The notes under the pieces: model-generated
The model's input: only the letters and a program-made list of their open reading frames with translations
Databases searched by the model: none
What the model was told of the DNA's origin: nothing
In this document: positions 39,118-54,623 of the stretch, piece by piece
How the letters are laid out: each line of letters opens with the position of its first letter
Position numbering within the stretch: the stretch's first letter is position 1
Position numbers and translations under genes: made by a program
Origin: Pseudomonas sp. MAG733B
Lineage (GTDB): Bacteria; Pseudomonadota; Gammaproteobacteria; Pseudomonadales; Pseudomonadaceae
Length of the DNA: 64,000 nucleotides
Reading direction: 5' to 3'
Assembly (NCBI RefSeq): GCF_036884845.1
Contig: NZ_CP145732.1
Span: 3,844,001-3,908,000, forward strand

Positions 39118-40218
39118 TCAAGAAGACTGCCAGACAGAACCTCGCGCCGGTGAGTTCAGGATGCCCATGATCTGCTCCGTATGTTCACCCGTTTTCGGCA
39201 CGCTTGCAGGCTGCACCACCTCGCCATTGAAACGCGGTGCGACGGCGGTTTGCAGCAACCCATCGCGCTCGAACCAGGTTCCACGAGCAGTGTTGTGCGG
39301 ATGCAGCGCGGCTTCGCTGGGTGCCAATACCGGGGCAAAGCACACATCGCTACCTTCCAGCAATTCGCACCAATGCGCACGTGTCCTGCTGGAAAACAGC
39401 TCGGTGAAATGCTGGTGCTGTTCTTTCCAGAACCGGCGATCCCATTGCCAGACAAAGCGCGAGTCAGCCTGGAGGCCGAGTTTTTCCAGCAGCAGTGAAT
39501 AGAACTGCGGCTCGATCGAACCCAGCGTAATGAATCCGCCATCAGCGCAGCGATAGGTTGCATAGAACGGCGAGCTGTCATGAATATTCTTGCCGCGTTC
39601 ATCACTCATAAAGCCCAGGTTACGTGTCGAAAGCATGAGCTGAAGCATGTGTGCCGAACCGTCGACGATGGCCGCATCGACCACCGCCCCTTTGCCGGTG
39701 GCCCGTGCGTTGAGAATGCCGCTCAGTAAGCCGATGGTCAGGTATAGCGCGCCGCCACCGACATCGCCTAACGTGGCGAATGCGGAGGAGGGGGGAGCTT
39801 CGGACGCACCGTTGTGAAACAGCGCGCCGGACAGCGACGCATAGTTATTATCGTGCCCGGCGACCTTGGCCAGCGGTCCGGACTGACCCCAGCCGGTCAT
39901 GCGGCCGTAGACCAGGCTCGGGTTACGGGCCTGGCAATCTTGCGGTCCAAGACCCAGGCGTTCCATCACGCCAGGGCGCATGCCTTCGATCAGCGCGTCT
40001 GCGTCTTCTATCAGGTGCAAGACCAGCTCCCTACCCACGGCACTTTTCAGATCGGCGATCACCGAACGCTTGCCTCTGTTGAGCACGTTGACCCTCGACG
40101 CGCCACTGGCATCGCGCTCAACCGCAATCACTTCAGCGCCCAGATCGGCCAAATGCATGGCCGAAAACGGGCCAGGACCGATACCGCAAATTTCCACAAT
40201 CTTTATGCCTTGCAGCAT
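39118..40218 (-). CDS. Alpha-methylacyl-CoA racemase-like CoA-transferase-family protein
   Basis: The 366-residue protein belongs to the CaiB/BaiF fold but carries the racemase residues rather than the transferase Asp pattern. These are His in KVAGHDNNYASLSG, Asp in FATLGDVGGGALYL, and Glu in LGSIEPQFYS, matching the catalytic His/Asp/Glu of AMACR/MCR. Such enzymes epimerise 2-methylacyl-CoA so that beta-oxidation of methyl-branched chains can proceed. It is last of the leftward operon (SDRs to racemase) and shares its orientation. This is the strongest hint that the substrate has an alpha-methyl branch. Confidence 0.83.
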   Translation of the reverse strand: MLQGIKIVEICGIGPGPFSAMHLADLGAEVIAVERDASGASRVNVLNRGKRSVIADLKSAVGRELVLHLIEDADALIEGMRPGVMERLGLGPQDCQARNPSLVYGRMTGWGQSGPLAKVAGHDNNYASLSGALFHNGASEAPPSSAFATLGDVGGGALYLTIGLLSGILNARATGKGAVVDAAIVDGSAHMLQLMLSTRNLGFMSDERGKNIHDSSPFYATYRCADGGFITLGSIEPQFYSLLLEKLGLQADSRFVWQWDRRFWKEQHQHFTELFSSRTRAHWCELLEGSDVCFAPVLAPSEAALHPHNTARGTWFERDGLLQTAVAPRFNGEVVQPASVPKTGEHTEQIMGILNSPARGSVWQSS

Positions 40219-40269
40219 GAAAACACCTCAACGGTTACACAGGTTGCAGCCGGGGAAAAAAGTACGGGC

Positions 40270-41412
40270 TCATGCGACATCCATCAGGCGGCTGTACGCC
40301 GCGAGGTGGTAGTCATCATCGCCAAACTGATGGCTGAACATCACGAGGCGCTTGGCGTGGTGGGAGAGGTTGTATTCCTCGGTCATGCCAATCCCGCCGT
40401 GCAGTTAAATGGCTTGCTCAGAAATGTGACGGGCCGCGCGGGTGACAATGAACTTGGCCGCGGCCAGGGCACGGCTGCGCTCGAGGCTATCGGGATCGTC
40501 GGCCACACAAGCGGCAAGAATGACCATCGACGCCGCCTGATCCAGTTCACTGCGCATGTCCACCATGCGGTGCTGAAGTACTTGGAACTTGCCGATGGGC
40601 TGACCAAACTGTTTGCGGGTCTTGAGGAAGTCCAGGGTCAGGCTGCAGGCTTCTTCCATGCTGCCCAGCGCTTCAGCGCATTGTGCCGCGATGGCGCGAC
40701 CCTGTTGGTAACGCAGTGCCGGGAAGGCCTTACCGGTTTCGCCCAGTTGCTGGGAGTCACTGACAAATACGCCATCCAGATAGAGTTCGCTGGCCCGGCG
40801 ACCGTCGATGGTTTGATAATCGCGGCGCCGTGCATGCGCGTGCGCGGCGTCAATCACGAACAGACTGATGCCGGCTTCATCATCCTCCTCACCGGCAACG
40901 CGGGCGGACACCATAATCAGCTCAGCGAACGGAGCGCCGATGACCACCGATTTGCGACCCGACAGTCGCCATCCTCCGGCGGCCAGTGTAGCGCGAGTTT
41001 GCACGGAGCTCAGTTGGTAATGGCTGTCCAGTTCTTCGGTTGCCACGGCGACCTTCAATTCGCCGCTTGCAATGCGTGGCAATAGATCGCTTTGCTGTGC
41101 CGGGCTACCCAGTTGGCTGATAAGGCCGCCGGCCAGAATCACCGAATCCATATAGGGTTCAAGGCACAGTCCACGGCCGAGTTCGGTCATGATCAGCATG
41201 GTGTCCACGCTGTCACCGCCGAAGCCACCCAGTTCCTCGGTGAACGGTACGGCGGTCAGGCCGAGTTCGCCGAGCTGAGCCCAGAACAGCGGGTTGAATC
41301 CGGCTTCGCTGAGACGAAAACGCTCGCGTTGCTCGAAGCTGTAGTGGTCGCGAACCAGGCGCGCGACGGTGTCCTGCAGCATCTGCTGCTCTTCAGTCAA
41401 TTTGAAATCCAT
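40270..41412 (-). pseudogene. Acyl-CoA dehydrogenase small-subunit type, interrupted by an ochre stop
   Basis: The frame from ATG 41412 encodes a PimD-like acyl-CoA dehydrogenase. It stops at TAA 40405-40407 after 335 codons (...AARHISEQAI), and the frame continues LHGGIGMTEEYNLSHHAKRL to a stop at 40270-40272. Total length with the stop codon replaced would be 380, normal for the family. The expected codon in the conserved EQAIQLHGGIG motif is CAA or CAG (Gln), so one C-to-T transition explains it. The lost part is the last 45 residues, including the GG(I/Y)G helix near the active site. Partner large subunit is at 41427-42623. Activity as written is doubtful. Confidence 0.87.
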
Positions 41413-41426
41413 GATCGGGCGGCCTT

Positions 41427-42623
41427 TTACAGTTCAAGAATCATCTTTGAGACGATGTTTTTCTGAATCTCGTTGGAACCACCGAAAATCGACAGCTTGC
41501 GCAGGTTGAAATACTGACCCGACACCGTGGAGCTGTATTCGGTGTGGAGCAGATTGTCGGTAGTCACTTGTTCTTGTTCCGCATCCAGGAACGGCAGCGC
41601 GTAAGGGCCTACAGCCTTGCGCATCAGGTGGCTCAAGGACTGGCGAATTTCGGAGCCCTTGACCTTGAGAAACGAACTGGCTGCGCCGATACCGCCACCG
41701 TCACGGGCGGCGGCGAGCATGCGTAGCGTGCTCATTTCGGCGGCCACCAGTTGCATTTCCACTTCGGCAATTTGCGCACGGAACAGCGGGTCGTCGATTA
41801 ACGCCCGGCGATTTCGCTGTTCTCGACCAGCAATGTGTTTGAGTTGGCGCAGTTGCGCCTTCGAGGTGCCGATGCCGGCGACGGTGGTACGTTCGTGAGT
41901 CAGCAGATACTTGGCGTAGGTCCAACCCTGGTTTTCTTCACCCACCAGGTTGGCCACCGGCACCCGCACGTCGTCGAAGAACACCTCGTTGACCTCATGG
42001 TCGCCGTCGAGGGTGATGATCGGCCGCACACTGATCCCCGGACTATTCATGTCAATCAGCAGGAAAGAGATGCCACGTTGTGCCTGGGCTTCGCTGTCGG
42101 TGCGCACCAGACAGAAGATCCAGTCGGCGAACTGCGCCTGGGTTGTCCATGTTTTCTGGCCGGTGACGATGTAGTGATCGCCGTCACGCACGGCACGGGT
42201 CTTCAGCGAGGCCAGGTCGGAACCTGCACCGGGTTCGGAGTAACCCTGGCACCACCAGTCGGTGCCATCGAGGATACGGGGCAAATAGTGGGCTTTTTGC
42301 TCTTCGGTGCCGAACTTGATGATGACTGGGCCCACCATCACCACCCCAAACGGTAGTACCGGCGGCGCACCGAACGCGGCGCACTCGTCTTCAAAAATGT
42401 GCTTCTGCACTTCGCTCCAGCCCGTGCCACCCAGCTCCACTGGCCACAGGGACGCATACCAGCCTCGCTCGTTAAGCGCAGCCATCCAGCTCACGTAATC
42501 GTGTTTGGTCAAGCGTTTGCCCAACCGTCCCTTGGCAGCGAGCTCCGGGGACAGCTTGTCATGCAGAAAAGCTCGCACTTCCTCACGGAAGGCCAGTTCG
42601 GCCGGCGTGTAATGGATGTCCAT
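41427..42623 (-). CDS. Acyl-CoA dehydrogenase large-subunit type (PimC/FadE-like)
   Basis: The 398-residue protein has the acyl-CoA dehydrogenase layout: SEPGAGSDLASLKTRA in the middle domain, and SIFGGSNEIQKNIVSKMILEL at the C-terminus. It resembles the larger subunit of two-gene dehydrogenases, such as pimeloyl-CoA dehydrogenase or the alpha2beta2 enzymes that act on steroid side chains. It is 14 bp upstream of the small-subunit gene, so the two probably form one enzyme. Substrate unknown. Confidence 0.86.
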   Translation of the reverse strand: MDIHYTPAELAFREEVRAFLHDKLSPELAAKGRLGKRLTKHDYVSWMAALNERGWYASLWPVELGGTGWSEVQKHIFEDECAAFGAPPVLPFGVVMVGPVIIKFGTEEQKAHYLPRILDGTDWWCQGYSEPGAGSDLASLKTRAVRDGDHYIVTGQKTWTTQAQFADWIFCLVRTDSEAQAQRGISFLLIDMNSPGISVRPIITLDGDHEVNEVFFDDVRVPVANLVGEENQGWTYAKYLLTHERTTVAGIGTSKAQLRQLKHIAGREQRNRRALIDDPLFRAQIAEVEMQLVAAEMSTLRMLAAARDGGGIGAASSFLKVKGSEIRQSLSHLMRKAVGPYALPFLDAEQEQVTTDNLLHTEYSSTVSGQYFNLRKLSIFGGSNEIQKNIVSKMILEL

Positions 42624-42696
42624 TGAAAGGTTCTCTAATGAGGAGAGGGTAGACGGCGCGCGGGGCAGATCTAATAGGCCTGCGCACCGGCTCGCA

Positions 42697-43485
42697 TCAG
42701 GCGCCGCGGTAGACCGGGGAACGCTTCTCTTCGAAGGCCTTGATCGCCTCCTTGTGGTCGGCGCTGAAAAAGTTTTCCTTCTCCAGGGCCAGCGAGGTAT
42801 CGAGGACCAGGTTCACGGTGTCGCGCAGGATCTTGTTGACGACGGCTTTGGTGGCCTGGATCGCCAGGCGCGGACCGTCAGCCATGCGTCGGGCCATCGC
42901 GGTGGCGCTGGCCAACGCTTCGCCATTGGCCACGACCTGATTGACCAAGCCAATGCGCTCGGCTTCGGTAGCGCTGAGTGTGTCGCCGGTAAACAGGTAT
43001 TGTTTGGCACGGGTCGGGCCGACCAGCAGGGGCCAAATGGCACCACCGCCGTCACCGGCAGCAATGCCTACGCGTACATGAGGGTCGGAAATTTTCGCTG
43101 ACTCGGCAACGAAAATCATGTCGCAGAACAATGCCAGGGTCGCTCCCAGACCGGCCGCGTGACCATTGACCGCCGCGATGATCGGCTGTGGCAGTTCAAG
43201 CATGTCGATGATGATCTTGCGTGCTTCACGGAACAGCTGATCGATGCCTTGCTGATTGATGTCGCGCATCCAGGCGAGGTCGCCGCCACCGCAAAAACCG
43301 CGACCTTCACCGGTCAGGACCACGGCATGCACACTGCGGTCGGCGGCGATGTCGGCGAACACCCGGGAAAGCTCTTCGTGCAGCGCACCGTTCACCGCGT
43401 TGAAGGCTTCAGGGCGATTCAAACGTACGGTCAAGACGCCGTTGTCTTTTTCGAAGGTAATGAAGTTGTACTGTTCGTAGTTCAT
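42697..43485 (-). CDS. Enoyl-CoA hydratase/isomerase family protein
   Basis: The 262-residue crotonase-fold protein contains LTGEGRGFCGGGDLAW, AAVNGHAAGLGATLALFCDMIF and IAAGDGGGAIWPLLVG, the oxyanion-hole and active-site regions. ATG 43485 is chosen (GGAGCTCCT upstream); the longer frame to 43692 lies in the neighbouring SDR gene. It probably hydrates the 2-enoyl-CoA made by the two-subunit dehydrogenase. Confidence 0.87.
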   Translation of the reverse strand: MNYEQYNFITFEKDNGVLTVRLNRPEAFNAVNGALHEELSRVFADIAADRSVHAVVLTGEGRGFCGGGDLAWMRDINQQGIDQLFREARKIIIDMLELPQPIIAAVNGHAAGLGATLALFCDMIFVAESAKISDPHVRVGIAAGDGGGAIWPLLVGPTRAKQYLFTGDTLSATEAERIGLVNQVVANGEALASATAMARRMADGPRLAIQATKAVVNKILRDTVNLVLDTSLALEKENFFSADHKEAIKAFEEKRSPVYRGA

Positions 43486-43519
43486 AGGAGCTCCACTAAA
43501 AAATGTGCAACGGTCAGGC

Positions 43520-44275
43520 TTAAGCCGTGTAACCGCCGTCGACGACGAATTGTCCGCCGGTGGCATAGGAAGATCGGTCCGAGGCCAGCCAAAGCACCAT
43601 TTGTGCTTGCTCGGACGGCTCGCCCAGACGGCGTTGGGGAATGGTCTTGAGCATCGCCGCCAGCGCATCGGGATCGAATTCGCTGCCGACACCGACGATC
43701 ATCGGTGTCTCTACGAAACCGGGGCACAGCGCGTTGATCCGCACGCCGTACTTGCCGTATTCCAGGGCGGCGCTGCGGGTCAGGCCGATCACGCCATGCT
43801 TGGACGCCGAGTAGGCAGATGCGCCAGCGGTGCCTTGCAGACCCATGATCGAGGCGGTGTTGATGATCGAACCGCCGCGCGCTTTCATGGCGCGCAGTTC
43901 ATGCACCATGCAGTTGAAAACCCCGGTCAGGTTCACATCCAGCACGTTGCGCCAGTGCTCCAGGCTTTGGTTTTCGATCAGCCCGGTGGAACCGCTGATG
44001 CCGGCATTGTTGAAGGCGATGTCGAGCTGGCCGTATCGGCCCAGCGTTACCTCGACCAGCGCGGCGCAATCTTCCTCGTGGCGCACATCGACCCGCTGGA
44101 AGAAGGCATCACCGTCGGCCTGGCGAATCTCGTCGACCACGGCTTGTCCTGCCGCGTCGTTCATGTCCGCCACCACGACCCGGGCACCCTCGCGGGCGAA
44201 CAACAGGGCTGTGGCGCGGCCAATACCGGAAGAGCCGCCGGTGACGATAGCCACCTTGTTTTGCAGAAGCTTCAT
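43520..44275 (-). CDS. SDR-family oxidoreductase, tandem copy 1
   Basis: The 251-residue Rossmann protein has TGGSSGIGRA (NAD site), NNAG and the catalytic Ser-Tyr-Lys (SAYSASKHGVIG). ATG 44275 has GGAAG at the right distance and the frame from 44290 is less likely. It is strongly similar to the next SDR (44328-45083), same length and same motif ALEYGKYGVRINALCPG, so the two arose by tandem duplication. Likely a 3-hydroxyacyl-CoA or alcohol dehydrogenase. Confidence 0.86.
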   Translation of the reverse strand: MKLLQNKVAIVTGGSSGIGRATALLFAREGARVVVADMNDAAGQAVVDEIRQADGDAFFQRVDVRHEEDCAALVEVTLGRYGQLDIAFNNAGISGSTGLIENQSLEHWRNVLDVNLTGVFNCMVHELRAMKARGGSIINTASIMGLQGTAGASAYSASKHGVIGLTRSAALEYGKYGVRINALCPGFVETPMIVGVGSEFDPDALAAMLKTIPQRRLGEPSEQAQMVLWLASDRSSYATGGQFVVDGGYTA

Positions 44276-44327
44276 ATCAATGACTTCCATTGCATGTGTG
44301 AAAAGGGAGGCAAGCGGGCATCACGGC

Positions 44328-45083
44328 TCAAGCCGATACACCGCCATCAACCACGAACTGCCCACCGGTGGCGTAGCACGACCGATCCGAGGCCAGCCAT
44401 AGCGCCATCTCGGCCATTTCCTCCGGCGTGCCTTGGCGGCGCAAGGCAGAGCTTTTGACGCCCGCGTTGATCATTTTTTCGTTGAAACCGCTGTCCGGGC
44501 CGGCGGTCATGGGCGTCTCGATCAATCCGGGGCACAGGGCGTTGATGCGCACGCCGTACTTGCCGTATTCCAGAGCTGCGCTGCGGGTCAGGCCGATCAC
44601 GCCATGCTTGGAGGCGCAATACGCCGCAGCCCCATAAGTGCCACTGATACCGGCGACCGAGGCGGTATTGATGATGGAACCGCCGCGGGCTTTCATCGCG
44701 CGCAGCTCGTGAACCATGCAGTTGAAGACGCCCGTCAGATTGACATCGAGCATGCGTTGCCAGAGCGCCAGGCCCTGATCCTCAGTCAAGGTCGGTGCGG
44801 CAAAGACGCCGGCGTTGTTGAGGGCGATGTCGAGTTGGCCATATCGCTGCAACGTCGAATCGACCAGCGCCGCACAATTTTCCTCACTGCGTACATCGAG
44901 CATTTGAAAGAACGCTTGCGCGCCTTCCTGCTCAATCAACCGCACCACCTCCAGGCCCGCGGATTCATTCATGTCCGCCACGACCACTTTGGCGCCCTGA
45001 CGGGCGAAGAGCAGGGCAGTGGCCCGCCCGATGCCGGACGCTGCCCCGGTCACGATCGCGACTTTGCCTTGTAGAACCGTCAT
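44328..45083 (-). CDS. SDR-family oxidoreductase, tandem copy 2
   Basis: The 251-residue protein has TGAASGIGRA, NNAGVFA and AAYCASKHGVIGL. ATG 45083 is chosen because GAGGAG lies 6 bp upstream; the 35 in-frame residues before it are not used. It is first in the leftward operon and faces a divergent promoter region with two 18-bp dyads. Differences from copy 1 lie mostly in the substrate loop (GLIETPMTAGPDSGFNEKM against FVETPMIVGVGSEFDPD), suggesting a different substrate or stereospecificity. Confidence 0.86.
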   Translation of the reverse strand: MTVLQGKVAIVTGAASGIGRATALLFARQGAKVVVADMNESAGLEVVRLIEQEGAQAFFQMLDVRSEENCAALVDSTLQRYGQLDIALNNAGVFAAPTLTEDQGLALWQRMLDVNLTGVFNCMVHELRAMKARGGSIINTASVAGISGTYGAAAYCASKHGVIGLTRSAALEYGKYGVRINALCPGLIETPMTAGPDSGFNEKMINAGVKSSALRRQGTPEEMAEMALWLASDRSCYATGGQFVVDGGVSA

Positions 45084-45147
45084 GAAAACTCCTCTGTGCG
45101 TTTTCCGTGCATGGCCAGAGAAGCTAAGGCAGCGGCGAATGATCGGA

Positions 45148-45257
45148 CCCACTCTCGAAGAGTGGCGGGCAGGGAGGGGGCAAAACACCTAACAGTCAGG
45201 CAAGACACTGAACCAGTGGCGAGGGACCCACCCACCCCACCCACTCTTCGAGGGCGG
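45148..45257. promoter_or_regulatory. Two 18-bp operator-like dyads in the divergent SDR/thiolase promoter
   Basis: CCCACTCTCGAAGAGTGG (45148-45165, with internal dyad CACTCT-CGA-AGAGTG) and CCCACTCTTCGAGGGCGG (45240-45257) share the pattern CCCACYC-N5-GAGKGG or close to it. They lie between the divergent start codons at 45083 and 45366. Similar sites precede the LuxR gene and MBL gene, so they may bind that regulator (inference). Confidence 0.5.
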
Positions 45258-45365
45258 GTCGTATCGCAAGCACGCTACGTATCTTGAAGGTGTGAGCCGG
45301 CCCAGCCGTCGCTTTGATCTCGTGAACCGGGTGTCACGAGGCATAACCACACAATGGAGAAGACG

Positions 45366-46553
45366 ATGTCGCAGAAAGTGTATGTAGCCGGCGTAGGTAT
45401 GATTCCGTTTCTGAAACCAGGTGCCAGCGGCTCCTACATCGAAATGGGCGCCGAGGCGACCCGCCTGGCCCTCAAGGATTCTGGTCTGGATTACCGGCTG
45501 GTGCAGCAAGCCTATGTCGGGTACGTCTACGGCGATTCCACCTCGGGTCAGTCGGCCCTCTATGAAGTGGGGATGACCGGTATCCCGGTGGTCAACGTCA
45601 ACAACAACTGCTCGACCGGCTCCAGCGCTCTATACCTTGCACGTCAGGCCGTGGAAAGCGGTGCGGTGGAATGCGCTCTGGCCCTCGGCTTCGAGCAAAT
45701 GCAACCCGGGGCGCTGAAAAACCAGTGGGAAGATCGCCCGGCCGCCATGGGCAAAAGCTCGGCAGTGGCGGACCTGCTGACCGCCGATGCCGAAGGCGTA
45801 CCCATGGCGCTGAAGATGTTCGGTGGCGCCGGTCGTGAGCACATGCACAAATACGGCACACAAATGAGCACCTTCGCGGCCATCCGCACCAAGGCCAGCC
45901 GTCACGCGGCCAACAACCCGCTTGCGCTGTTCCGCAAGGTCGTGACTACCGAAGACGTGATGAACGATCAGGTCGTATGGCCCGGCGTGATGACCCGCCT
46001 GATGGCTTGCCCGCCAACCTGTGGAGCCGCGGCGGCAATCATCTGCACCGAGGCTTTCGCCCGCAAACACGGCCTGCGCACAGACGTGGTGATCCTCGCC
46101 CAGTCGATGACCACGGACATGCCAATCGCCTACGAGCCGCCATCGATGATCCAAATGGTCGGTTTCGACATGGCTCAGCGCGCCGCTCATGAAGTGTATG
46201 AGAAGGCTGGTGTAGGACCGCAGGACATCCGCGTCGCCGAAATGCACGACTGCTTCGCCCACAACGAACTGCTGACCTATGAATCGCTGGGTTTTTGCCC
46301 GGTCGGTGGCGCCGAGCGCTTCGTGCTTGATGGCGACAACACCTACGGCGGCCAGGTGGTCACCAACCCGTCCGGCGGTCTGCTCTCCAAGGGCCACCCG
46401 CTGGGGGCAACCGGCCTGGCGCAATGCTACGAACTGACCCATCAATTGCGTGGCACGGCTCAGGACCGCCAAGTCCAGGGTGTGCGTCATGCGTTGCAGC
46501 ACAACCTCGGTCTCGGCGGCGCTTGCGTGGTCACGCTTTACGGCCGCGGCTGA
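45366..46553 (+). CDS. SCP-x type thiolase (lipid-transfer thiolase)
   Basis: The 395-residue protein has the nucleophilic Cys in NVNNNCSTGSSAL, HDCFAHNELL, and SKGHPLGATGLAQ with the catalytic His, so the three thiolase active-site elements are present. Thiolases of this subfamily cleave bulky or branched 3-oxoacyl-CoA (sterol carrier protein x type). ATG 45366 (GGAG 6 bp upstream) is chosen over 45354. First gene of the rightward operon. Confidence 0.87.
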   Translation: MSQKVYVAGVGMIPFLKPGASGSYIEMGAEATRLALKDSGLDYRLVQQAYVGYVYGDSTSGQSALYEVGMTGIPVVNVNNNCSTGSSALYLARQAVESGAVECALALGFEQMQPGALKNQWEDRPAAMGKSSAVADLLTADAEGVPMALKMFGGAGREHMHKYGTQMSTFAAIRTKASRHAANNPLALFRKVVTTEDVMNDQVVWPGVMTRLMACPPTCGAAAAIICTEAFARKHGLRTDVVILAQSMTTDMPIAYEPPSMIQMVGFDMAQRAAHEVYEKAGVGPQDIRVAEMHDCFAHNELLTYESLGFCPVGGAERFVLDGDNTYGGQVVTNPSGGLLSKGHPLGATGLAQCYELTHQLRGTAQDRQVQGVRHALQHNLGLGGACVVTLYGRG

Positions 46554-46611
46554 TCCACTGGACCCGCATCCAAGGGCGCGGGTCTGAGAACCCTGATAGG
46601 AGAGTTGTGAA

Positions 46612-47049
46612 ATGGCAGACAAGAGTCTGATCGGCCGTTCGCTTGGCGTCACCAGCGCCGAAGTGGAAAAAGGCCGCCTGCGTTTCTTCGCAAAGGCGAT
46701 TGGTGAAACCGACCCGGTATACACCGACGAAGCTGCGGCTCAGGCCGCTGGCTATAAATCCCTGCCGGTACCACCAACGTTCCTCCTGTGCCTGCAAGGC
46801 GAGGGGCGCGACCTGGTGGAAATGTTGGACATCTACGGCTTTGACCTGGGGCGCATCCTGCACGCCGAGCAATCGTTCGTGTACCACGCCAGCGCCGTTG
46901 CCGGTGACACGCTGACTTTCGATTCCCGCGTAGTCGATGTCTACGAAAAGAAGGGTGGCGCCCTGCAATTCGTGGTCAACGAAACCCGCGTGACCAATCA
47001 GGACGGCGTCCATATCGCCGATGTCCGCGGCACCCTCGTTCAACGTTGA
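46612..47049 (+). CDS. MaoC-like hot-dog protein, non-catalytic half (FAS1-like dehydratase type)
   Basis: The 145-residue protein has a single hot-dog fold with GRSLGVTSAEVEKGRLRFFAKAIGETDPVY and PVPPTFLLCLQGEG, like the N-terminal half of MaoC-type hydratases. The hydratase D-x4-H motif is not seen. It overlaps the next gene (start region 47046-47061 after its stop at 47049) and probably pairs with it to build a full (R)-enoyl-CoA hydratase, as in HadAB-type heterodimers. Confidence 0.83.
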   Translation: MADKSLIGRSLGVTSAEVEKGRLRFFAKAIGETDPVYTDEAAAQAAGYKSLPVPPTFLLCLQGEGRDLVEMLDIYGFDLGRILHAEQSFVYHASAVAGDTLTFDSRVVDVYEKKGGALQFVVNETRVTNQDGVHIADVRGTLVQR

Positions 47050-47060
47050 GGAACCTACAC

Positions 47061-47477
47061 ATGAATATTCAATACAGCGATATCCAGGTGGGCGATGAAC
47101 TGCCGGCGTTGAACCTGCCAGCCATCAACCGCACCACCCTGGCCCTTTATTGCGGCGCGTCGGGTGATCACAACCCGATCCATATCGACATCGACTTCGC
47201 CCGCAAGGCGCGCATGCCCGACGTGTTTGCCCACGGCATGTTGTCCGCCGCCTACCTGGGACGACTGCTGACCCAGTGGGTACCGCAGCAACAGGTGCGT
47301 TCGTTGTCGATGCGTTTTACCGGCATCACCCAGCTCGGCCACACGCCGGCCTGCACCGGCAAAGTCACCGAAAAGTTTGAAGAAAACGGCGAAAAACGTG
47401 TGCGCCTGACGATCCACTGCGCCAACCAGTACGGCGAGGACAAGCTCGTCGGCGAAGCCGTCGTAGCCTTGGCCTGA
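47061..47477 (+). CDS. MaoC-like hot-dog protein, catalytic half
   Basis: The 138-residue protein carries the hydratase motif GDHNPIHIDIDFARKARMPDVFAHGMLS (Asp and His). GAGGAA precedes ATG 47061, 11 bp after the stop of the partner. The partner lacks the motif and this one has it, so a heterodimer is likely: two half-size hot-dog subunits, as for the hydratases of steroid side-chain breakdown and mycolate synthesis. Confidence 0.83.
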   Translation: MNIQYSDIQVGDELPALNLPAINRTTLALYCGASGDHNPIHIDIDFARKARMPDVFAHGMLSAAYLGRLLTQWVPQQQVRSLSMRFTGITQLGHTPACTGKVTEKFEENGEKRVRLTIHCANQYGEDKLVGEAVVALA

Positions 47478-47509
47478 ATCCTCCAACTCCCTATCCCTGG
47501 AAAACAATA

Positions 47510-48340
47510 ATGAAAAAGCTCGAAGGCAAAGTTGCTCTGATCACCGGTTCCGGTCGTGGCATTGGTCGCAGTGTCGCTCTGCAACTGGCCGCCTATGGCG
47601 CCAAAGTCGTGGTCAATGACCTGGACGCCGCGCCCGCCGAAGAAGTGGTCGCTGAGATCCGCGCCGCCGGCGGCGAAGCCGTGGCCTGTGTCGGAAGTGT
47701 CACTGCCGCCGATTTCGCTGAGCGCTTTGTGCAGACCGCCGTTCAAAGTTTTGGCGGCATCGACATCATCGTTAACAACGCCGGCTACACCTGGGACAAC
47801 GTGATCCAGAAGATGACCGATGAGCAGTGGTACGCGATTCTCGACTGCCACCTGACCGCACCATTTCGAATCCTGCGCGCCGCCCAACCAGTCATCAGCG
47901 CCCAGGCCAAGAAAGAAGTCGCCGAAGGTCGGGAGGTGTTCCGCAAGGTGGTCAACATTTCTTCCGTCGCCGCCGGTGGCAACGCCGGTCAGGCCAACTA
48001 TTCCTCGGCCAAGGCCGGCATCCTCGGCATGACCAAGACCCTGGCACGCGAGTGGGGTCGCATGAAGGTGTGCGTCAATGCCGTGGCGTTCGGTTTCATC
48101 GACACGCGTCTGACCCAGGCACTGGCCGGCAACGAAAGCAAGACGGTCAACATCGAGGGCCGCGAGATCAAGGTCGGCGTACAACAGGCCATGGTCGACG
48201 GCGCCAGCCAGATGATCCCGCTGGGCCGTCCGGGCACGCCGGAAGAAGCCGCAGGTTCGGTGGTGATGCTGTGCCTGCCGGAAGCCAACTACGTATCCGG
48301 CCAAACCCTGGTCTGCGGCGGCGGTCATGGTGCCGTTTAA
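47510..48340 (+). CDS. SDR-family oxidoreductase (3-hydroxyacyl-CoA dehydrogenase candidate)
   Basis: The 276-residue protein has TGSGRGIGRS, NNAG and the catalytic Ser with NYSSAKAG (Tyr-x3-Lys). Sequence style (NISSVAAGGNAGQANYSSAKAGILGMTK) is typical of FabG and of HSD17B4-like 3-hydroxyacyl-CoA dehydrogenases that follow MaoC hydratases. It is 32 bp after the MaoC pair. Confidence 0.86.
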   Translation: MKKLEGKVALITGSGRGIGRSVALQLAAYGAKVVVNDLDAAPAEEVVAEIRAAGGEAVACVGSVTAADFAERFVQTAVQSFGGIDIIVNNAGYTWDNVIQKMTDEQWYAILDCHLTAPFRILRAAQPVISAQAKKEVAEGREVFRKVVNISSVAAGGNAGQANYSSAKAGILGMTKTLAREWGRMKVCVNAVAFGFIDTRLTQALAGNESKTVNIEGREIKVGVQQAMVDGASQMIPLGRPGTPEEAAGSVVMLCLPEANYVSGQTLVCGGGHGAV

Positions 48341-48424
48341 ACGCTGACGTGAAATCCCGTCGCCTCGCCATTCAGCGCGGGGCGTTCGGGCCAGGACAAC
48401 AATAAGAATTTTGAGGTATTCGCC

Positions 48425-49570
48425 ATGCTGGATAACTACCGTTCCCCTTGGCTAGACGAAGACGTCGCGCCATTTGCCGACAGCGTTCGCCGTTTTGTCA
48501 CCACCCAATTGGCACCCATGGAAGAAAAGTGGCGCGAGCAGCACCAGGCTGACCGCGCTTCATGGCTGGCGACGGGCGAAATGGGCATGATCCTGCCCGA
48601 TATCGACGTTGAGTACGGCGGCTCGGGTGGTACACCGGCGCACCTGGCAGTGGTGGTCAGTGAACTGTTCTATGCCGGTGTATCCGGCATGGGCGTTGGC
48701 ATCAACCACATCGTCGGGCACTACATCCTCGACGACGGCACCGAAGCGCAAAAGCAGCACTGGCTGCCAAAGATTGCCTCAGGTGAAGTGATCTGCTCCG
48801 TCGCCATGACCGAGCCAGGTACTGGTTCCGATTTGCAGGCTGTCCGTACCCGCGCGGTCAAGCAGGGCGACAAGTACGTGATCAACGGTGCCAAGACGTT
48901 CATCACCAACGGCCAGACCAGCGACATGGTGGCGGTTGTCGCCAAGACCGACATGTCCGCCGGCTCCAAGGGCATTTCGATTTTCCTGGTTGATACCAAA
49001 CTTCCGGGCTTCCGTCGCGGCAAGTGCCTGGACAAGATCGGCCTGCAATCGTCGGATACTTCCGAGATGTTCTTTGACGATGTCGAAGTCCCGGCTGACT
49101 GCCTGCTGGGCGGTATCGAAGGGAAAGGCCTGTACACCCTGATGAAGCAACTGCCGTTCGAACGAGCACAGATCGCTATTGGCGCCGCCGCCACCATGGA
49201 ACGCGCCCTCAAGCTGACCCTTGAGTACACCAAAGAGCGCCAGGTGTTCGGCAAGCCGGTACTGGATTTTCAGAACACCCGTTTCAGCCTGGCTGACGTC
49301 AAGGCCACCGTATTCGCTTCGCGCACGTTCTGTGATCACATCATCGCGCAATGGGTCAACGGCAAACTCGACTCGACACTGGCCTCAATGGGCAAGTTCT
49401 GGCTGACCGAGCGTCAGAGCGAAGTGCTCGATACCTGCCTGCAATTTTTCGGTGGCTACGGCTACATGAACGAATACCCGATTGCCCGGATGTGGGCAGA
49501 TGCGCGCGTTGCCCGTATCTACGGCGGCGCCAACGAGATCCAGCGCGAGCTGGTGGGCCGTTCGCTTTAA
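48425..49570 (+). CDS. Acyl-CoA dehydrogenase
   Basis: The 381-residue protein has MTEPGTGSDLQAVRTRA, FGKPVLDFQNTRFSLADVKA, FFGGYGYMNEYPIARMW and IYGGANEIQRELVGRSL. The usual YEGT Glu is replaced by Gly; the Glu of LPFERAQIA could serve as base, as in isovaleryl-CoA dehydrogenase types. Separated from the SDR by 84 bp. A third dehydrogenase in the pathway suggests at least two rounds of oxidation. Confidence 0.87.
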   Translation: MLDNYRSPWLDEDVAPFADSVRRFVTTQLAPMEEKWREQHQADRASWLATGEMGMILPDIDVEYGGSGGTPAHLAVVVSELFYAGVSGMGVGINHIVGHYILDDGTEAQKQHWLPKIASGEVICSVAMTEPGTGSDLQAVRTRAVKQGDKYVINGAKTFITNGQTSDMVAVVAKTDMSAGSKGISIFLVDTKLPGFRRGKCLDKIGLQSSDTSEMFFDDVEVPADCLLGGIEGKGLYTLMKQLPFERAQIAIGAAATMERALKLTLEYTKERQVFGKPVLDFQNTRFSLADVKATVFASRTFCDHIIAQWVNGKLDSTLASMGKFWLTERQSEVLDTCLQFFGGYGYMNEYPIARMWADARVARIYGGANEIQRELVGRSL

Positions 49571-49579
49571 CGGGCTCTC

Positions 49580-49608
49580 TGTAGGAGCCGGCGCAAGCTG
49601 CTCCTACA
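49580..49608. terminator. Hairpin after the acyl-CoA dehydrogenase gene
   Basis: TGTAGGAGC (49580-49588) and GCTCCTACA (49600-49608) form a 9-bp stem with an 11-base loop, followed by a second CTGCTCCTA fragment. The sequence looks like half of a Pseudomonas REP-type element. No T tract is present, so it may only attenuate transcription before DUF2889. Confidence 0.45.
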
Positions 49609-49625
49609 AGCTGCTCCTATAGGGT

Positions 49626-50255
49626 ATGCGGCCAGCCCCCATGTCTGTCGAGAAAAGCCTGATGAAGCAAATAGCATCGAACGAGTCGGCCCGAAAAGCG
49701 CTGCACACGCGACAAGTGATCTGTACCGGCTACCTGCGCAGCGATGGCTTGATCGATCTGGAAGGCCGCCTGCTGGACACCAAGCACCACGATCACGACG
49801 CTTACTACAAACTGATTCCAGCCGGCGCCCCAGTGCACCGGATGCACATTGTCTTGACCACCGATCTGCAATTCGTGATTCACAACGTTGAAGCGATCAT
49901 GGACGACATCCCCACACCGTTCTGTCCTGAAATCGTTGCGGCCTACAAGAGCCTGATCGGCCTGAAGGTCGGCCCAGGCTTCAAGAAGCAGATGATTCAG
50001 CGCGTCGGTGGCGTCCAGGGGTGTACCCATCTCACCGAATTGCTCGGCCCGATGGCGACCACGTTATACCAAAGCACCGTGGACCTGCTGCGCGAAGCCG
50101 AGCGCGAGCGCGCCGCTCGTGACCCGGATTACGTCGCCCCCAAGCCCTGGTTCATTGGCACCTGCCATGCCCATAGCACCGACAGGGAAGAGGTGCGTAA
50201 TCGCTGGCCCGACGCTGAGCCGGTACCGATACACCTGATTGCCGCTAACCGATAA
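49626..50255 (+). CDS. DUF2889 family protein
   Basis: The protein is up to 209 residues; conserved features are CTGYLRSDGLIDLEGRLLDTK, HRMHIVLTTDLQFVIHNVEA, GGVQGCTHLTELLGPMATTLYQS and the final FIGTCHAHS. The many His and Cys residues (HHDHDAYY, GCTH, CHAH) could bind metal. DUF2889 has no known activity but is often found with acyl-CoA enzymes. Starts at 49626, 49641 and 49662 are all possible; 49662 has GAGAAA at a suitable distance. It lies in the rightward operon. Confidence 0.8.
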   Translation: MRPAPMSVEKSLMKQIASNESARKALHTRQVICTGYLRSDGLIDLEGRLLDTKHHDHDAYYKLIPAGAPVHRMHIVLTTDLQFVIHNVEAIMDDIPTPFCPEIVAAYKSLIGLKVGPGFKKQMIQRVGGVQGCTHLTELLGPMATTLYQSTVDLLREAERERAARDPDYVAPKPWFIGTCHAHSTDREEVRNRWPDAEPVPIHLIAANR

Positions 50256-50295
50256 CCAAGCCATTGCCCAGAACAATAAGAAATGGGAGTTTCCG

Positions 50296-51864
50296 ATGTA
50301 CATCACTCAAGGTTTGCACCGTCACCTTCAACGCTGTCCGAACGCTACTGCCATTCGTTATCAGGGGCGGGGTATCACCTACGCCGAGTTTGGCGATCGC
50401 GTTGCGCGCCTGGCCGGTGCGCTCAAGGGCCTGGGCGTAACCAGCGGGGATCGCGTGGCGATGCTGTCGCTCAATTCCCTGCGCTACATCGAGTACTACC
50501 AGGCGGTGCCCTGGGCCGATGCGGTGCTCAACCCGGTCAATACCCGTTGGAGTGTGACGGAAATCATCTACTCGCTTGACGATTCGGGTACGACGGTGCT
50601 GATCGTCGACGACAACTTTCTGGCCCATGCGAGCAAGATCATCGAAACAGCAAAAACCCTACGGGTGGTGATCTATGCGGGTGACGGTGAAACACCGACC
50701 GGCATGCTTAATTACGAAGCGTTGATTGCCGAGTACGCGCCAGTCGAGGACGCACGTCGCGGCGGCGATGAGCTGCTGGGTATCTTTTATACCGGTGGCA
50801 CCACCGGTTTTCCGAAAGGTGTGATGCTCAGCCACACGAACGTCTGCGTTTCATCGATGGCCATCGTTATGTCTGGCTCCTGCCGTCCACACGAACGTTT
50901 CCTGCATGCGATGCCGATGTTCCATCTGGCTGACTTTGCGGCCATGACCGCACTGTTCATCAGCGGCGGTACCCACGTCGTCCTGCCTTCTTTCCTGCCA
51001 CAGACCGTGCTGGAAACCATTGCCACCGAGCGAGTCAGCGAAATCCTGCTGGCACCGACCATGATCCAGATGCTGCTGGACTGGCGGACCAACATTCCGG
51101 ACACCACGAGCCTTGACCTGTCGTCACTGCAAACCCTGGGCTACGGCGCATCACCCATCACACCAGTTTTGCTGGATCGTGCCCGTGATACGTTCCCCAG
51201 CGCCGGATTCCGCCAGGGTTACGGCATGACAGAACTGGCGCCCATCGCCACCTTGCTGTTACCCGAGTATCACAGCGCAGAACACCACCAAAGCGGCAAA
51301 ATGCACTCGGCCGGGCAGCCGGCGGCGTGCGTGGAAGTGCGCATCGTCGATACCGAAGACCGGGAAGTGCCGCGTGGCACCGTCGGGGAGATAGCCGTAC
51401 GCGGGGCGAACGTCATGCTCGGTTACTGGAACAAACCTGAAGCCACCGCTGAAGTATTGCGCAATGGCTGGATGCACACCGGTGACGGCGGCTACATGGA
51501 TGACGATGGATTCGTCCATGTGTGCGACCGCCTCAAGGACATGATCGTCAGCGGCGGCGAAAACATCTATTCCGCCGAAGTGGAGACCGCCATCGCCAGT
51601 CACCCGGCCGTGGCCCAAGTCGCGGTGATAGGCATTCCCTGCGACAAGTGGGGCGAGACAGTCCACGCGGTAATCATCCGCAAATCCGGCACTACCGTCA
51701 CCGACGAGCAAGTGGTTAGTCACTGCCGTGATCGCATTGCCGGCTACAAGTGCCCGCGCAGCGTGGAGTTTCGCGACAGCTTGCCGGTCTCCAGCATCGG
51801 CAAGGTGCTCAAGACCGACCTGCGCGCGCCGTTCTGGGAAGGCCGCAAACGCGGCGTGGCTTGA
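50296..51864 (+). CDS. AMP-binding acyl-CoA synthetase
   Basis: The 522-residue enzyme has the adenylation motifs YTGGTTGFPKGV, GYGMTELAP, MHTGDGGYMDDDGFVHVCDRLKDMIVSGGENIY and the C-terminal Lys in SIGKVLKTDLR. ATG 50296 is chosen (GGGAG upstream, 41 bp after DUF2889). It activates the free acid with ATP and CoA and is the expected first step of the pathway. Type is FadD-like; chain preference unknown. Confidence 0.9.
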   Translation: MYITQGLHRHLQRCPNATAIRYQGRGITYAEFGDRVARLAGALKGLGVTSGDRVAMLSLNSLRYIEYYQAVPWADAVLNPVNTRWSVTEIIYSLDDSGTTVLIVDDNFLAHASKIIETAKTLRVVIYAGDGETPTGMLNYEALIAEYAPVEDARRGGDELLGIFYTGGTTGFPKGVMLSHTNVCVSSMAIVMSGSCRPHERFLHAMPMFHLADFAAMTALFISGGTHVVLPSFLPQTVLETIATERVSEILLAPTMIQMLLDWRTNIPDTTSLDLSSLQTLGYGASPITPVLLDRARDTFPSAGFRQGYGMTELAPIATLLLPEYHSAEHHQSGKMHSAGQPAACVEVRIVDTEDREVPRGTVGEIAVRGANVMLGYWNKPEATAEVLRNGWMHTGDGGYMDDDGFVHVCDRLKDMIVSGGENIYSAEVETAIASHPAVAQVAVIGIPCDKWGETVHAVIIRKSGTTVTDEQVVSHCRDRIAGYKCPRSVEFRDSLPVSSIGKVLKTDLRAPFWEGRKRGVA

Positions 51865-51909
51865 GGCACGGCGAAACAATAAGAACAACACGTTGAGGAC
51901 TGACAAATC

Positions 51910-53382
51910 ATGCAATCTCACTGCGCAAAGACGGGGTCGCGTGGCCGTAAGACGCTGCTCGCCGCCTGCTTGATCTGCCTTGGATTAGGGCTGGGACTGA
52001 CTGGCGTGCCGCTGCCGTCATTCAGCCAGACCCAGTCACTTTCAAGCCCTGAAAACCTGCACAACCGCATGCTCGAACGTCGCGCTGTTGAAGCGGCGGT
52101 CTGGGGCATGCCACTGGTCAACTTCGATGCCATGCGCCAAGCCTATTTCCGCGATGCCGGCGCGCGCTACAACGATGTCATGTACTGGTCGCGACCTTCG
52201 GACTGGAAGAACCAGACCACCACACCCAACCATTCCACCATTTACGTAATGACCTTCGTCAACCTGAAGGACGGCCCTGTGGTGCTGGATATTCCGGCAA
52301 CCACCACGGCTGGCCTCTATGGCGCGGTACTCGATGCGTGGACCATTCCATTGCTCAATGTTGGCAGTCGCGGCCAGGATCAGGGCAAAGGCGGGCGCTA
52401 CCTGATGCTGCCACCGGGTTATAAAGGTGAAGTGCCGGCCGGTTTCATTCCTATCCAAAGCAGCACCTACAACAACTACACCTTGTTGAGGGTCATCACT
52501 CAAACCACCAGCACTCAGGACTTGGCGAATGGCGTCGACTACCTGAAAACCTTGAAAGTTTACCCACTTGAGCAGGCGCAGACACCGGCCTCCAACCGCT
52601 ACATAGACGTGGCCGACAAAGTCTTTGAAGCCATCGCCCGCTATGACGCCAGCTTCTACGACTCATTGGCGCGGATGGTCAGCGAAGAACCGGTGCAGGA
52701 TCGTGACATGAGCATGATGGGGCAATTGAATGCGCTGGGCATTGGTAAAGGTCTGGACTTCAAGGCCGACGCCCAGCGTCAGAAACTTCTCGACGCGGCC
52801 ATCGGTGAAGCACACGCTTACATGATGGACGGCTACGCCCGATCGGGTATCGAGGTTTGGGAAGGACGACGTAAATGGCGCTCACTGGCCGGGCCAAAGC
52901 AGGCGATTGGCACCAAACTGACGTTCATCGAGCCGGGGCAGGGTGTCTATCTGGACGAGCGGGCTTTTGCCTGGTTTGCCATGTTCGGCCCCATCGTGCC
53001 GCCGGGGCCACAGGTGTACATGAAAAGCTACGAAACCGGCAAAGGCGAGCCCCTTGATGGCAGCCAGAGCTACCGCTTGACCATCCCGGCCAACGCGCCG
53101 GCACGGGATTTCTGGGCGCTCGATGTGTACGACGCGCGTACTGCCGGGTTCATCCGCGAGGCGAGGGTAGTCGGGCTTGACTCCTACAACCAGCAGATGA
53201 AGAAGAACCCCGATGGCAGCGTCGATCTGTACTTCGGGCCGAAACCGCCGACCGGGCATGAAGCCAACTGGATCAGCACTCAGGCTGGCCAGCCGTTCTT
53301 CACCATGTTCCGGATCTATGGACCGCAACAGCCGATGGTCGACCGCAGTTGGGTGTTGAGTGACATCGAAAAACTCGATTGA
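51910..53382 (+). CDS. DUF1254/DUF1214 domain protein, copy B
   Basis: The 490-residue protein has a signal segment (LLAACLICLGLGLGLTGVPLPSFS) and DUF1254 (AVWGMPLVNFDAMRQAYF, TPNHSTIYVMTFVNLKDGPVVLDIP) plus DUF1214 (RDFWALDVYDARTAGFIREA). It is only distantly similar to copy A (33989-35386) and belongs to another subfamily. It lies last in the rightward operon and, with copy A, shows that the cluster uses at least two of these secreted proteins. Function unknown. Confidence 0.83.
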   Translation: MQSHCAKTGSRGRKTLLAACLICLGLGLGLTGVPLPSFSQTQSLSSPENLHNRMLERRAVEAAVWGMPLVNFDAMRQAYFRDAGARYNDVMYWSRPSDWKNQTTTPNHSTIYVMTFVNLKDGPVVLDIPATTTAGLYGAVLDAWTIPLLNVGSRGQDQGKGGRYLMLPPGYKGEVPAGFIPIQSSTYNNYTLLRVITQTTSTQDLANGVDYLKTLKVYPLEQAQTPASNRYIDVADKVFEAIARYDASFYDSLARMVSEEPVQDRDMSMMGQLNALGIGKGLDFKADAQRQKLLDAAIGEAHAYMMDGYARSGIEVWEGRRKWRSLAGPKQAIGTKLTFIEPGQGVYLDERAFAWFAMFGPIVPPGPQVYMKSYETGKGEPLDGSQSYRLTIPANAPARDFWALDVYDARTAGFIREARVVGLDSYNQQMKKNPDGSVDLYFGPKPPTGHEANWISTQAGQPFFTMFRIYGPQQPMVDRSWVLSDIEKLD

Positions 53383-53444
53383 GAAACCCTGATGGAACCG
53401 CGCGGTTCAGGTGCAGGCCTGGCCGCGCGTTGCCATATTCAGAG

Positions 53445-54563
53445 TCAGGGCAACTCGCCGATCAGGCCTTCGGCGATTCGTTGCGCATCCTCGGCAATAC
53501 TCTCGCTGAGAAGAGCCAGCGGTCCGCCGTTGTGTGGCCAATTCGGGTTGTTGTTCTGAGGGACGTTGCTGCTGTCGATCCGGCTGATACGCCGTTCGAT
53601 ACGTTGCGCGATCTCGGCCGTCAACAACCGTGCGCGGCTGGCGATATTGCCATCCAGGCGATCGGCATCGAGTTGCGCAAAACCCAACCCGCACATCAGT
53701 CGGGCAGCATCCAGTTGGGTGGCGAGTTCGGCGAACTGCATGGCCACGAGGTGCTGGGCGGCAATCGGGCGACCGAACTGCGTGTTGTGGCTGGCCCGGG
53801 ACATCGATGCATCGAGCAACGCCTGACCACGGGCCAATTGGATCACCGCTTCATGCAATTTGAATGTATCCAGCACATGGCGTGTCATCAGCGAGGCAGG
53901 GGCTGCATCGCCGAGCCAGCGCTGTGTCGGGAGTCGGGCCTGAGTGATCTGCAGGCACATGTGCTTCTCACCTTCAACATCGTGGTAATGACGGATCTCG
54001 AAGCGGTCTTCCGAGCGATCCAGCAATATCCATGAGGAAGACTTCGAGTGTTCGCGAACCGCACAAATGAGCAAGTCGGTCTGCAGGCTTGCGCTGACGT
54101 TGTCGCATCTGCCGTCAATGAGCCACTCGTCGCCTTTGCGTCGACCGTGCAGTGCACTGGTCGGGCCGTTCCGGGTGATTCCGACAAGTCTGCGGCCAGC
54201 GATCAACTCGGGGAGATAGCGCTCAGCCAGCGCCGGATGCTGCATCACCAGCGTCGTTGCGAGCGTATTGAGCAATACCTGACAGGCAAGTTCGACACTG
54301 CCTGCTGCCAACTCTTCGAACAGTCTGCCCTGGGTCACCCAGTCGACGCCGTGACCTCCGAGGGACCTGGTCACCACCATGCCAGGCAAGCCGAACTCGG
54401 CGACCGCCTGAGTGAGTTCCAGCAGCTGATCGCGCGGTGCTGCGGCGTGGCGCAATAGACTGGCGACGGGTGCAATTTCACGCTGCACAAAGGTGCGCAT
54501 GCTGTCGATTGAAAGCCTTTGGGCATCTGTCATCGGTGGACATACCATCTCAAGTTCACTCAT
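53445..54563 (-). CDS. Diverged acyl-CoA dehydrogenase-like protein
   Basis: The 372-residue protein keeps an acyl-CoA dehydrogenase-like N-terminal domain (FVQREIAPVASLLRHAA, FGLPGMVVTRSLGGHGVDWVTQGRLFEELA) and FGRPIAAQHLVAMQFAELATQLDAARL. The C-terminus is unlike the family: there is no GGYG helix, no RDAR segment and no catalytic Glu motif, and it ends with SSNVPQNNNPNWPHNGG. The middle (NGPTSALHGRRKGDEWLIDGRCDNVSAS) replaces the TEPxxGSD motif. It may be an inactive or new-function relative. It diverges from the LuxR gene. Confidence 0.68.
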   Translation of the reverse strand: MSELEMVCPPMTDAQRLSIDSMRTFVQREIAPVASLLRHAAAPRDQLLELTQAVAEFGLPGMVVTRSLGGHGVDWVTQGRLFEELAAGSVELACQVLLNTLATTLVMQHPALAERYLPELIAGRRLVGITRNGPTSALHGRRKGDEWLIDGRCDNVSASLQTDLLICAVREHSKSSSWILLDRSEDRFEIRHYHDVEGEKHMCLQITQARLPTQRWLGDAAPASLMTRHVLDTFKLHEAVIQLARGQALLDASMSRASHNTQFGRPIAAQHLVAMQFAELATQLDAARLMCGLGFAQLDADRLDGNIASRARLLTAEIAQRIERRISRIDSSNVPQNNNPNWPHNGGPLALLSESIAEDAQRIAEGLIGELP

Positions 54564-54605
54564 AGTCCGGATGCTTCCAAGTTAATGCATTGCCGATGAT
54601 TTCCG

Positions 54606-54623
54606 CCCACCCCGCTGGAGTGG
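54606..54623. promoter_or_regulatory. 18-bp operator-like dyad upstream of the LuxR gene
   Basis: CCCACCCCGCTGGAGTGG at 54606-54623 lies between the divergent acyl-CoA dehydrogenase-like and LuxR genes and matches the sites at 45148, 45240 and 57346. If LuxR binds it, this would be an autoregulatory site. Confidence 0.45.

Follow-up and report, generated by a model that had tools for sequence, protein, structure and literature searches.

In vertebrates, peroxisomal beta-oxidation of branched chains uses alpha-methylacyl-CoA racemase (AMACR), a branched-chain oxidase, MFE-2 and SCPx. Bacterial side-chain modules for cholate and sterols have enzymes of the ChsE, Ltp and MCR type. One study of four Pseudomonas that have steroid pathways reports that most of the cholate side-chain genes were absent from two of them, and that none of the Proteobacteria tested metabolised cholesterol (Bergstrand et al. 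2016, PMC4810484). DUF1302 and DUF1329 proteins have been tied to hydrophobic substrates in P. putida, where PP_0765/PP_0766 are stated to be essential for use of Tween 20 and are proposed to be parts of a transport system (PMC10866462), and in Castellaniella, where AmeA and AmeB (AmeAB) belong to monoterpene metabolism (PMC6394551). The present analysis concerns a 64,000-nucleotide stretch of Pseudomonas sp. MAG733B (the window; bases 3844001-3908000 of contig NZ_CP145732.1, in a single-contig genome of 6.65 Mb), which carries two divergent gene runs that together resemble parts of such pathways. We hold, with slightly better than even confidence, that these runs belong to a supercluster that degrades methyl-branched hydrophobic acids and alcohols, and whose modules stand beside steroid ring-degradation genes in at least one other Pseudomonas. 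No description of this cluster was found in the open-licence literature, as judged by titles and abstract openings.

The two runs, whose operon status was read from gene order and spacing, diverge from a point between 45188 and 45354, in agreement with an earlier interpretation made from the letters alone (the sequence-only reading). The minus operon extends from 45188 down to 39118 and comprises genes for two short-chain dehydrogenases/reductases (SDRs), a crotonase, PimC-like and PimD-like acyl-CoA dehydrogenases and an alpha-methylacyl-CoA racemase, while the plus operon (45354-53382) opens with the gene for an SCPx-type thiolase, which is followed by those for a FAS1_DH/MaoC pair, a third SDR, another acyl-CoA dehydrogenase, DUF2889, the acyl-CoA ligase and DUF1254/DUF1214 (Table 1). 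Every domain that the sequence-only reading had named was recovered by Pfam or NCBIfam, including the ligase, the PimC/PimD-like pair, three SDRs and the CoA_transf_3 protein; its gene list was incomplete, as it left out the crotonase (42697-43485), a MalT-type LuxR regulator (54590-57340) and one more, divergent dehydrogenase (53445-54563). Gene calling covered a 164 kb stretch (3784001-3948000) around the window and, with the exception of one broken subunit described below, the listed genes were found to be open frames with coding-like composition.

The content of this longer stretch suggests that the window locus is half of a partly duplicated supercluster of ~102 kb, reaching from about 3799900 to 3902315 (3.7999-3.9023 Mb), with ends judged from gene content and with unrelated genes interspersed among the modules. 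Upstream of the window, Pfam identified an aldehyde dehydrogenase, a zinc-dependent alcohol dehydrogenase, a PimC/PimD-like pair, a FAS1_DH/MaoC pair, a thiolase, a ligase, a major facilitator superfamily (MFS) transporter, a second DUF2889 protein, a DUF1329 protein, both subunits of an electron transfer flavoprotein (ETF) and a regulator of the MalT type. Also encoded there are another CoA_transf_3 protein, which shares 64% identity with the window AMACR, a DUF1302 protein and, as recognised by similarity, two SDRs and a further two thiolases of the SCPx type. The identities between upstream and window copies were, for example, 75-83% for the thiolases, 72% for the ligase and 67-68% for PimC/D. 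To the sequence-only reading the locus looked like a self-contained uptake and degradation system; this did not hold, as much of the set is duplicated upstream, and the uptake part was overstated, as DUF1302 is present in 398/398 Pseudomonas genomes examined.

Among PDB entries matched by the racemase, Mycobacterium MCR (1x74) scored 319 bits and the first non-racemase entry, 4ed9, only 120, and an alignment with 1x74 showed that R81, H122, D152 and E236, presumably the catalytic residues of MCR-type racemases, are all kept at the MCR positions. The His, Asp and Glu among them had been named beforehand. Both genes of the predicted two-subunit PimCD/ChsE-like dehydrogenase are present, and their nearest PDB entries are 4x28 and 6wy8, which we take to belong to steroid side-chain dehydrogenases; the best match of the large subunit, 4x28_A, is labelled acyl-CoA dehydrogenase only, and both subunits score below the NCBIfam PimC/PimD cut-offs. 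The small subunit, however, is truncated at an in-frame TAA (40405-40407), beyond which ~44 further open codons resemble the end of its 380-residue upstream paralogue (L043:6472-7614), which is intact. This stop may be a sequencing error.

The nearest solved relatives of the plus-operon thiolase are 6hsj (428 bits) and 6hrv, both named SCP2-thiolase (type-1). The HadA/HadB-like pair that follows scores below the HadA/HadB equivalog cut-offs, and its (R)-stereochemistry is predicted by homology. The adjacent SDR reached 228 bits, summed over two stretches, against the (3R)-hydroxyacyl-CoA dehydrogenase 2et6, presumably yeast MFE-2, compared with at most 169 for FabG entries. In the acyl-CoA dehydrogenase at 48425-49570, a Glu aligns with the Glu of 8w0t and the Gln of 8w0z (the LPxER position), and YGG stands at the MCAD position; on our assumption that these are functional sites of acyl-CoA dehydrogenases, the Glu would be the catalytic base. 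The start of the synthetase is likely internal, near 50296, as indicated by similarity to the copy in locus L008.

By homology, this enzyme set supplies the parts of a 2-methyl-branched beta-oxidation, and the methyl-branched hydrophobic acid proposed by the sequence-only reading stood as its best interpretation. The analysis shows the genes with their families, key residues and linkage, along with the co-occurrence with KshA described below; from these we infer the substrate class, the uptake role, the regulation and each of the following reactions. DUF1302 and DUF1329 proteins would carry the substrate across the outer membrane and periplasm, and the zinc-dependent alcohol dehydrogenase and aldehyde dehydrogenase of the upstream copy would convert an alcohol to the acid, which the ligase would activate to the CoA ester. 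AMACR would epimerise the 2-methyl centre, a dehydrogenase of the LCAD or PimCD type, served by an ETF of its own, would form the enoyl-CoA, and the HadAB-like pair would hydrate it to an (R)-hydroxyacyl-CoA for oxidation by the MFE-2-like SDR. The SCPx thiolase would then release propionyl- or acetyl-CoA, with the MalT/LuxR proteins as candidate switches that turn the pathway on. Acyclic isoprenoid acids and branched side chains are both candidate substrates, and this strain would probably be left with either a shortened chain or rings that it cannot open.

The likeness to the vertebrate peroxisomal pathway, by homology, lies in AMACR, the hydratase pair with the MFE-2-like SDR, and the SCP2-type thiolase. 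In the present case, however, separate proteins take the place of a fused MFE-2, the hydratase is closer to HadAB than to the vertebrate type, and a dehydrogenase with ETF stands in place of the oxidase. With bacterial steroid side-chain modules the locus shares, by homology, a heteromeric-type dehydrogenase near 4x28/6wy8, an AMACR near MCR and SCPx-type thiolases, as well as linkage to KshA in one relative, genome G015. Unlike those modules, it has DUF2889 and DUF1254 in its operon and a ligase below the steroid cut-offs, and it lacks KshA in the genome and a ChsH2-like partner in the 164 kb.

The DUF1302/DUF1329 pair named in the sequence-only reading is present, but at 35494-38794, just outside the span assigned to the cluster. 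The DUF1302 protein is presumed to be a barrel by analogy with PP_0765, and it shares 91% identity with its counterpart at 2697-4604. Three of the seven DUF1302 sites in the genome are inside the supercluster. In a survey that scored at most three candidates per genome, the family was found in all 398 Pseudomonas genomes, so the pair alone says little, and the extra clustered copies are the special feature. Unscored first-look counts gave a median of 10 copies in the 32 genomes that carry the SCPx thiolase (see below) against 4 in 111 thiolase-negative genomes from among G001-G120 (p = 9e-14). The arrangement resembles PP_0765/0766 and AmeAB in that the same two families stand side by side and are tied to hydrophobic substrate use; here, three pairs occur in one supercluster together with CoA beta-oxidation. 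No RND partner gene was noticed beside the pairs, and none was specifically searched for.

The SCPx thiolase was detected (E up to 1e-100) in 32/398 Pseudomonas genomes, with at most four candidates scored per genome, so that a count of four is a lower bound. Among the relatives that could be named are Pseudomonas sp. ERMR1:02, P. schmalbachii, P. jinjuensis and Pseudomonas sp. BN102, and the plus operon is conserved in relatives, with 70-93% identity in genome G271. A set of 42 relative loci of ~20 kb, chosen mostly around DUF2889 and including two that overlap (L047 and L050), contained 29 with the thiolase. Among these 29, an SDR was present in 24, MaoC and DUF2889 in 22 each, a similar acyl-CoA dehydrogenase in 18, a MalT regulator in 17 (homologues of at least 27% identity), DUF1329 in 15, DUF1302 in 13, the ligase in 14, AMACR in 11 and the PimC/D pair in 3. 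A sulfatase gene was present in five of the 29, three of them confirmed as PF00884; in relatives, sulfatase genes inside or close to these operons were noted at L047, L053, L055, L068 and L161, and the 164 kb stretch of the window's own genome contained no sulfatase homologue.

DUF2889 was found in 19/398 Pseudomonas genomes, 17 of which also carry the thiolase (Fisher p = 3e-19), making it a strong companion of the thiolase in this genus. In an alignment of 61 rows, two of which repeat the window's own copy, three Cys (C100, C133 and C180) were invariant in 61/61. A relationship to IscU (SufE/NifU fold) was considered but is not favoured, as the similarity was one of fold only, below the tool's reliable level, and hhalign was negative. 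Outside Pseudomonas, DUF2889 was labelled in 14/20 distant loci, with neighbours, read by eye from N-termini, that are mostly of other kinds: the thiolase module is present at L153, which comes from the same family, and different lipid-degradation genes at L146, while the rest have neither. DUF2889 is thus not specific to this pathway. A separate observation is that in L135, L137, L140, L141, L145 and L149 it lies near aroK/aroB-like, CBS-domain, CorC-like and BolA-like genes (by eye), a recurring order that is partial in each distant genome and unrelated to lipid catabolism.

The resemblance to steroid side-chain oxidation pointed out in the sequence-only reading was examined through KshA (PF19298). 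Strong matches (E < 1e-60, a threshold fixed after the scores were seen) occurred in 20/32 thiolase genomes, namely 9 of 12 genomes picked as cluster-rich and 11 of the remaining 20, and in 4/60 thiolase-negative genomes, these being the 60 lowest-numbered of 366 (G001-G065; p = 1.4e-8). Pfam's own cut-off gave 24/32 against 9/60 (p = 1.6e-8); the statistics ignore phylogeny, and the association could reflect versatile degraders. In G015, one stretch of 140 kb carries KshA (226 bits), a FadD3-family ligase over its cut-off, a ChsH2-like protein, a CoA-transferase and a KstD-like gene, the best model of which, 3-oxosteroid 1-dehydrogenase, scored 579 bits, below the cut-off of 788. The same stretch holds PimC/PimD-like proteins (75%), ETF (78-86%), an MFS transporter (82%), an AMACR-like CoA_transf_3 protein (52%) and two SCPx-MaoC-MaoC-SDR modules, and one of the listed G015 thiolases contains an internal stop. 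The steroid likeness gains support from this enrichment and linkage, but not from the window's own genome, in which no KshA was found.

Cytochrome P450 (PF00067) also gave zero matches in the strain's genome, and with both KshA and P450 missing, 9,10-seco ring opening, and with it 9,10-seco ring degradation by this strain, is unlikely; complete steroid catabolism was ruled out as a candidate on the same two results. The seven PF00848 matches in the genome all lie outside 3.784-3.948 Mb (extradiol dioxygenases were not searched for), in keeping with the earlier statement that the region has no ring-attacking oxygenases.

A number of results weigh against degradation of methyl-branched substrates by a supercluster with relatives in steroid pathways. 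Besides the absence of KshA from the genome, the late threshold and the neglect of phylogeny, strong KshA is missing in 12/32 thiolase genomes and present in 4/60 others, one of which (G046) carries DUF2889. In 19/20 KshA-positive thiolase genomes, KshA and the listed thiolases are on different contigs or separated by 178 kb or more, so physical linkage comes from G015 only. No ChsH2-like protein (MaoC plus DUF35), the partner of the Ltp aldolase, was found at 1e-5 by tblastn of the 164 kb stretch with the G015 query, and the window ligase is far under the cut-offs of the steroid equivalogs, with 276 bits against 750 for CasG and 359 against 657 for the FadD3 family. The PimC, PimD and HadA/HadB matches are weak or under curated cut-offs, the PimD-like subunit is broken, and SCPx-type thiolases and MaoC/SDR sets may act on straight chains too.

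A rival account has an acyclic isoprenoid, or another open-chain branched acid or alcohol, as the substrate of a cluster with no steroid link, the KshA association being a mark of versatile genomes. This account, which we regard as possible though rather unlikely, draws on the lack of KshA and P450 matches in the genome, the upstream alcohol and aldehyde dehydrogenases, which suggest entry as an alcohol, a ligase of general long-chain type, and the occurrence of KshA near the modules in just 1/20 genomes; it has to contend with the KshA enrichment and the G015 linkage, and with the lack of a geranyl-CoA-carboxylase-type carboxyltransferase in the cluster. The Atu/Liu acyclic terpene pathway as such was rejected, none of the five PF01039 matches in the genome being in the cluster. 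Degradation of rubber oligomers was likewise set aside, since a RoxA-like match at 2309506 is far from the cluster amid genes that by eye are unrelated; this open reading frame (ORF) is ~600 residues long with a membrane-anchor-like N-terminus, and comparable matches occur in 8 of 12 genomes searched. A more specific proposal, and quite an improbable one, is that the system is a bacterial food-use counterpart of the vertebrate C27-to-C24 bile pathway. It would take up C27 bile alcohols or their sulfates, release and oxidise the terminal CH2OH group adjacent to the methyl branch and use AMACR for the epimerisation, with the SCPx thiolase releasing propionyl-CoA; relatives with KshA would degrade the rings, this strain would take the side chain only, with the nucleus left to other organisms, DUF1302/DUF1329 would be the missing route of steroid uptake, and DUF2889 would be a new metal- or thiol-dependent helper.

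That the cluster has no branched preference and simply degrades an ordinary hydrophobic compound, be it a fatty acid, an ester or a surfactant, appears improbable. The need for DUF1302/DUF1329 on Tween 20 in P. putida, the occurrence of DUF1302 in every genome surveyed and the sulfatases beside some relatives' operons, which could fit alkyl sulfates, all speak for it, but two AMACR-type genes, at least four SCPx-type thiolases and LCAD-type dehydrogenases exceed what straight chains would be expected to require, and the thiolase is restricted to 32/398 genomes. Partial decay or silence of the cluster in this strain is highly improbable: the stop in the PimD-like subunit, a CoA-transferase split in two ORFs (14422-15636) and the unrelated genes between modules would agree with decay, whereas a paralogue covers the broken subunit and the other listed genes are open. 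A biosynthetic role was discarded, as no polyketide or terpene synthase was noticed among the called cluster genes, although none was specifically searched for.

Table 1. Features of the window, with assignments predicted from the matches given (positions in the window).
Feature	Position	Strand	Evidence
Second DUF1302/DUF1329 pair	2697..5998	+	Pfam
Second DUF1254/DUF1214 protein	33989..35392	-	Pfam
DUF1329 periplasmic (LolA-like) protein, DUF1302 partner	35494..36861	-	PF07044 487 bits; signal-like N-terminus, by eye
DUF1302, presumed outer-membrane barrel	36887..38794	-	PF06980 532 bits
Alpha-methylacyl-CoA racemase (AMACR/MCR type)	39118..40218	-	Best PDB sequence match Mycobacterium MCR 1x74, 319 bits
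Small subunit, PimCD/ChsE-like heteromeric acyl-CoA dehydrogenase	40405..41412	-	PimD model 270 bits, below cut-off 653
Large subunit, PimCD/ChsE-like heteromeric acyl-CoA dehydrogenase	41427..42623	-	PimC model 476 bits, below cut-off 624
Crotonase-type enoyl-CoA hydratase/isomerase	42697..43485	-	ECH_1 185 bits; start from gene calling
SDR dehydrogenase 1	43520..44290	-	adh_short_C2 233 bits; 70% identical to SDR 2
SDR dehydrogenase 2	44328..45083	-	adh_short_C2 229 bits; start from gene calling
SCPx-type thiolase, first plus-operon gene	45354..46553	+	NCBIfam PRK08256 672 bits, cut-off 436
HadA-like (FAS1_DH) subunit, heteromeric (R)-hydratase	46612..47049	+	PF13452 154 bits; PDB HadA/HadC-type entries at most 44 bits
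HadB-like MaoC subunit	47061..47477	+	PF01575; PDB HadB 53 bits; SGDHNPIH stretch in sequence
SDR, MFE-2-type (3R)-hydroxyacyl-CoA dehydrogenase-like	47510..48340	+	PDB 2et6
Acyl-CoA dehydrogenase, long-chain (LCAD)/isovaleryl-CoA dehydrogenase (IVD) type	48425..49570	+	Closest named PDB relative mitochondrial LCAD 8w0t
DUF2889 protein	49626..50255	+	PF11136 136 bits
Acyl-CoA synthetase	50239..51864	+	PRK06187 526 bits, over cut-off 476
DUF1254/DUF1214 protein	51910..53382	+	Pfam; signal-like N-terminus, by eye
Divergent acyl-CoA dehydrogenase-like protein, no scored middle domain	53445..54563	-	Pfam
MalT/LuxR-type regulator (STAND ATPase, TPR, GerE)	54590..57340	+	Pfam

Other genes were found around the modules. 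A nitrilase cluster at 20826-26824, presumably of the Nit1C type, lies between two DUF1302/DUF1329 pairs with a sigma-54 type regulator adjoining, and its members (MSMEG_0572 family, Nit6803 nitrilase, MSMEG_0568 radical SAM, MSMEG_0567 GNAT, sll0787 AIR synthase-like and MSMEG_0569 flavoprotein) were all over their NCBIfam cut-offs. A 1323-residue autotransporter (8280-12251) is also located between two such pairs. At 12352-16462 stands a group of genes reminiscent of itaconate/citramalyl-CoA-type degradation: they encode a CitE/RipC-like lyase, with a RipC match below its cut-off, a weakly matched MaoC-like protein, an acyl-CoA dehydrogenase and a CoA-transferase that is split over two ORFs (14422-14700 and 14710-15636). 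Two related proteins (66%) flank the modules, at 7202-8065, with a weak metallo-beta-lactamase fold match, and at 57404-58315, with a YtnP lactonase model match below cut-off and THLHAP where HxHxDH is usual. Upstream of the window, L044:15706-17424 encodes a 572-residue, probably secreted protein with no Pfam match, a 74% homologue of which adjoins AMACR in the relative locus L063, where DUF2889 is also present.

If a supercluster for methyl-branched hydrophobic acids and alcohols is the correct interpretation, branched hydrophobic chains would be handled by an accessory module in part of the genus Pseudomonas, where 32/398 genomes carry the thiolase. The module would bring with it a candidate uptake pair and an unassigned companion family, DUF2889, open to testing by simple deletions, and it could show the harvesting of side chains uncoupled from ring degradation.

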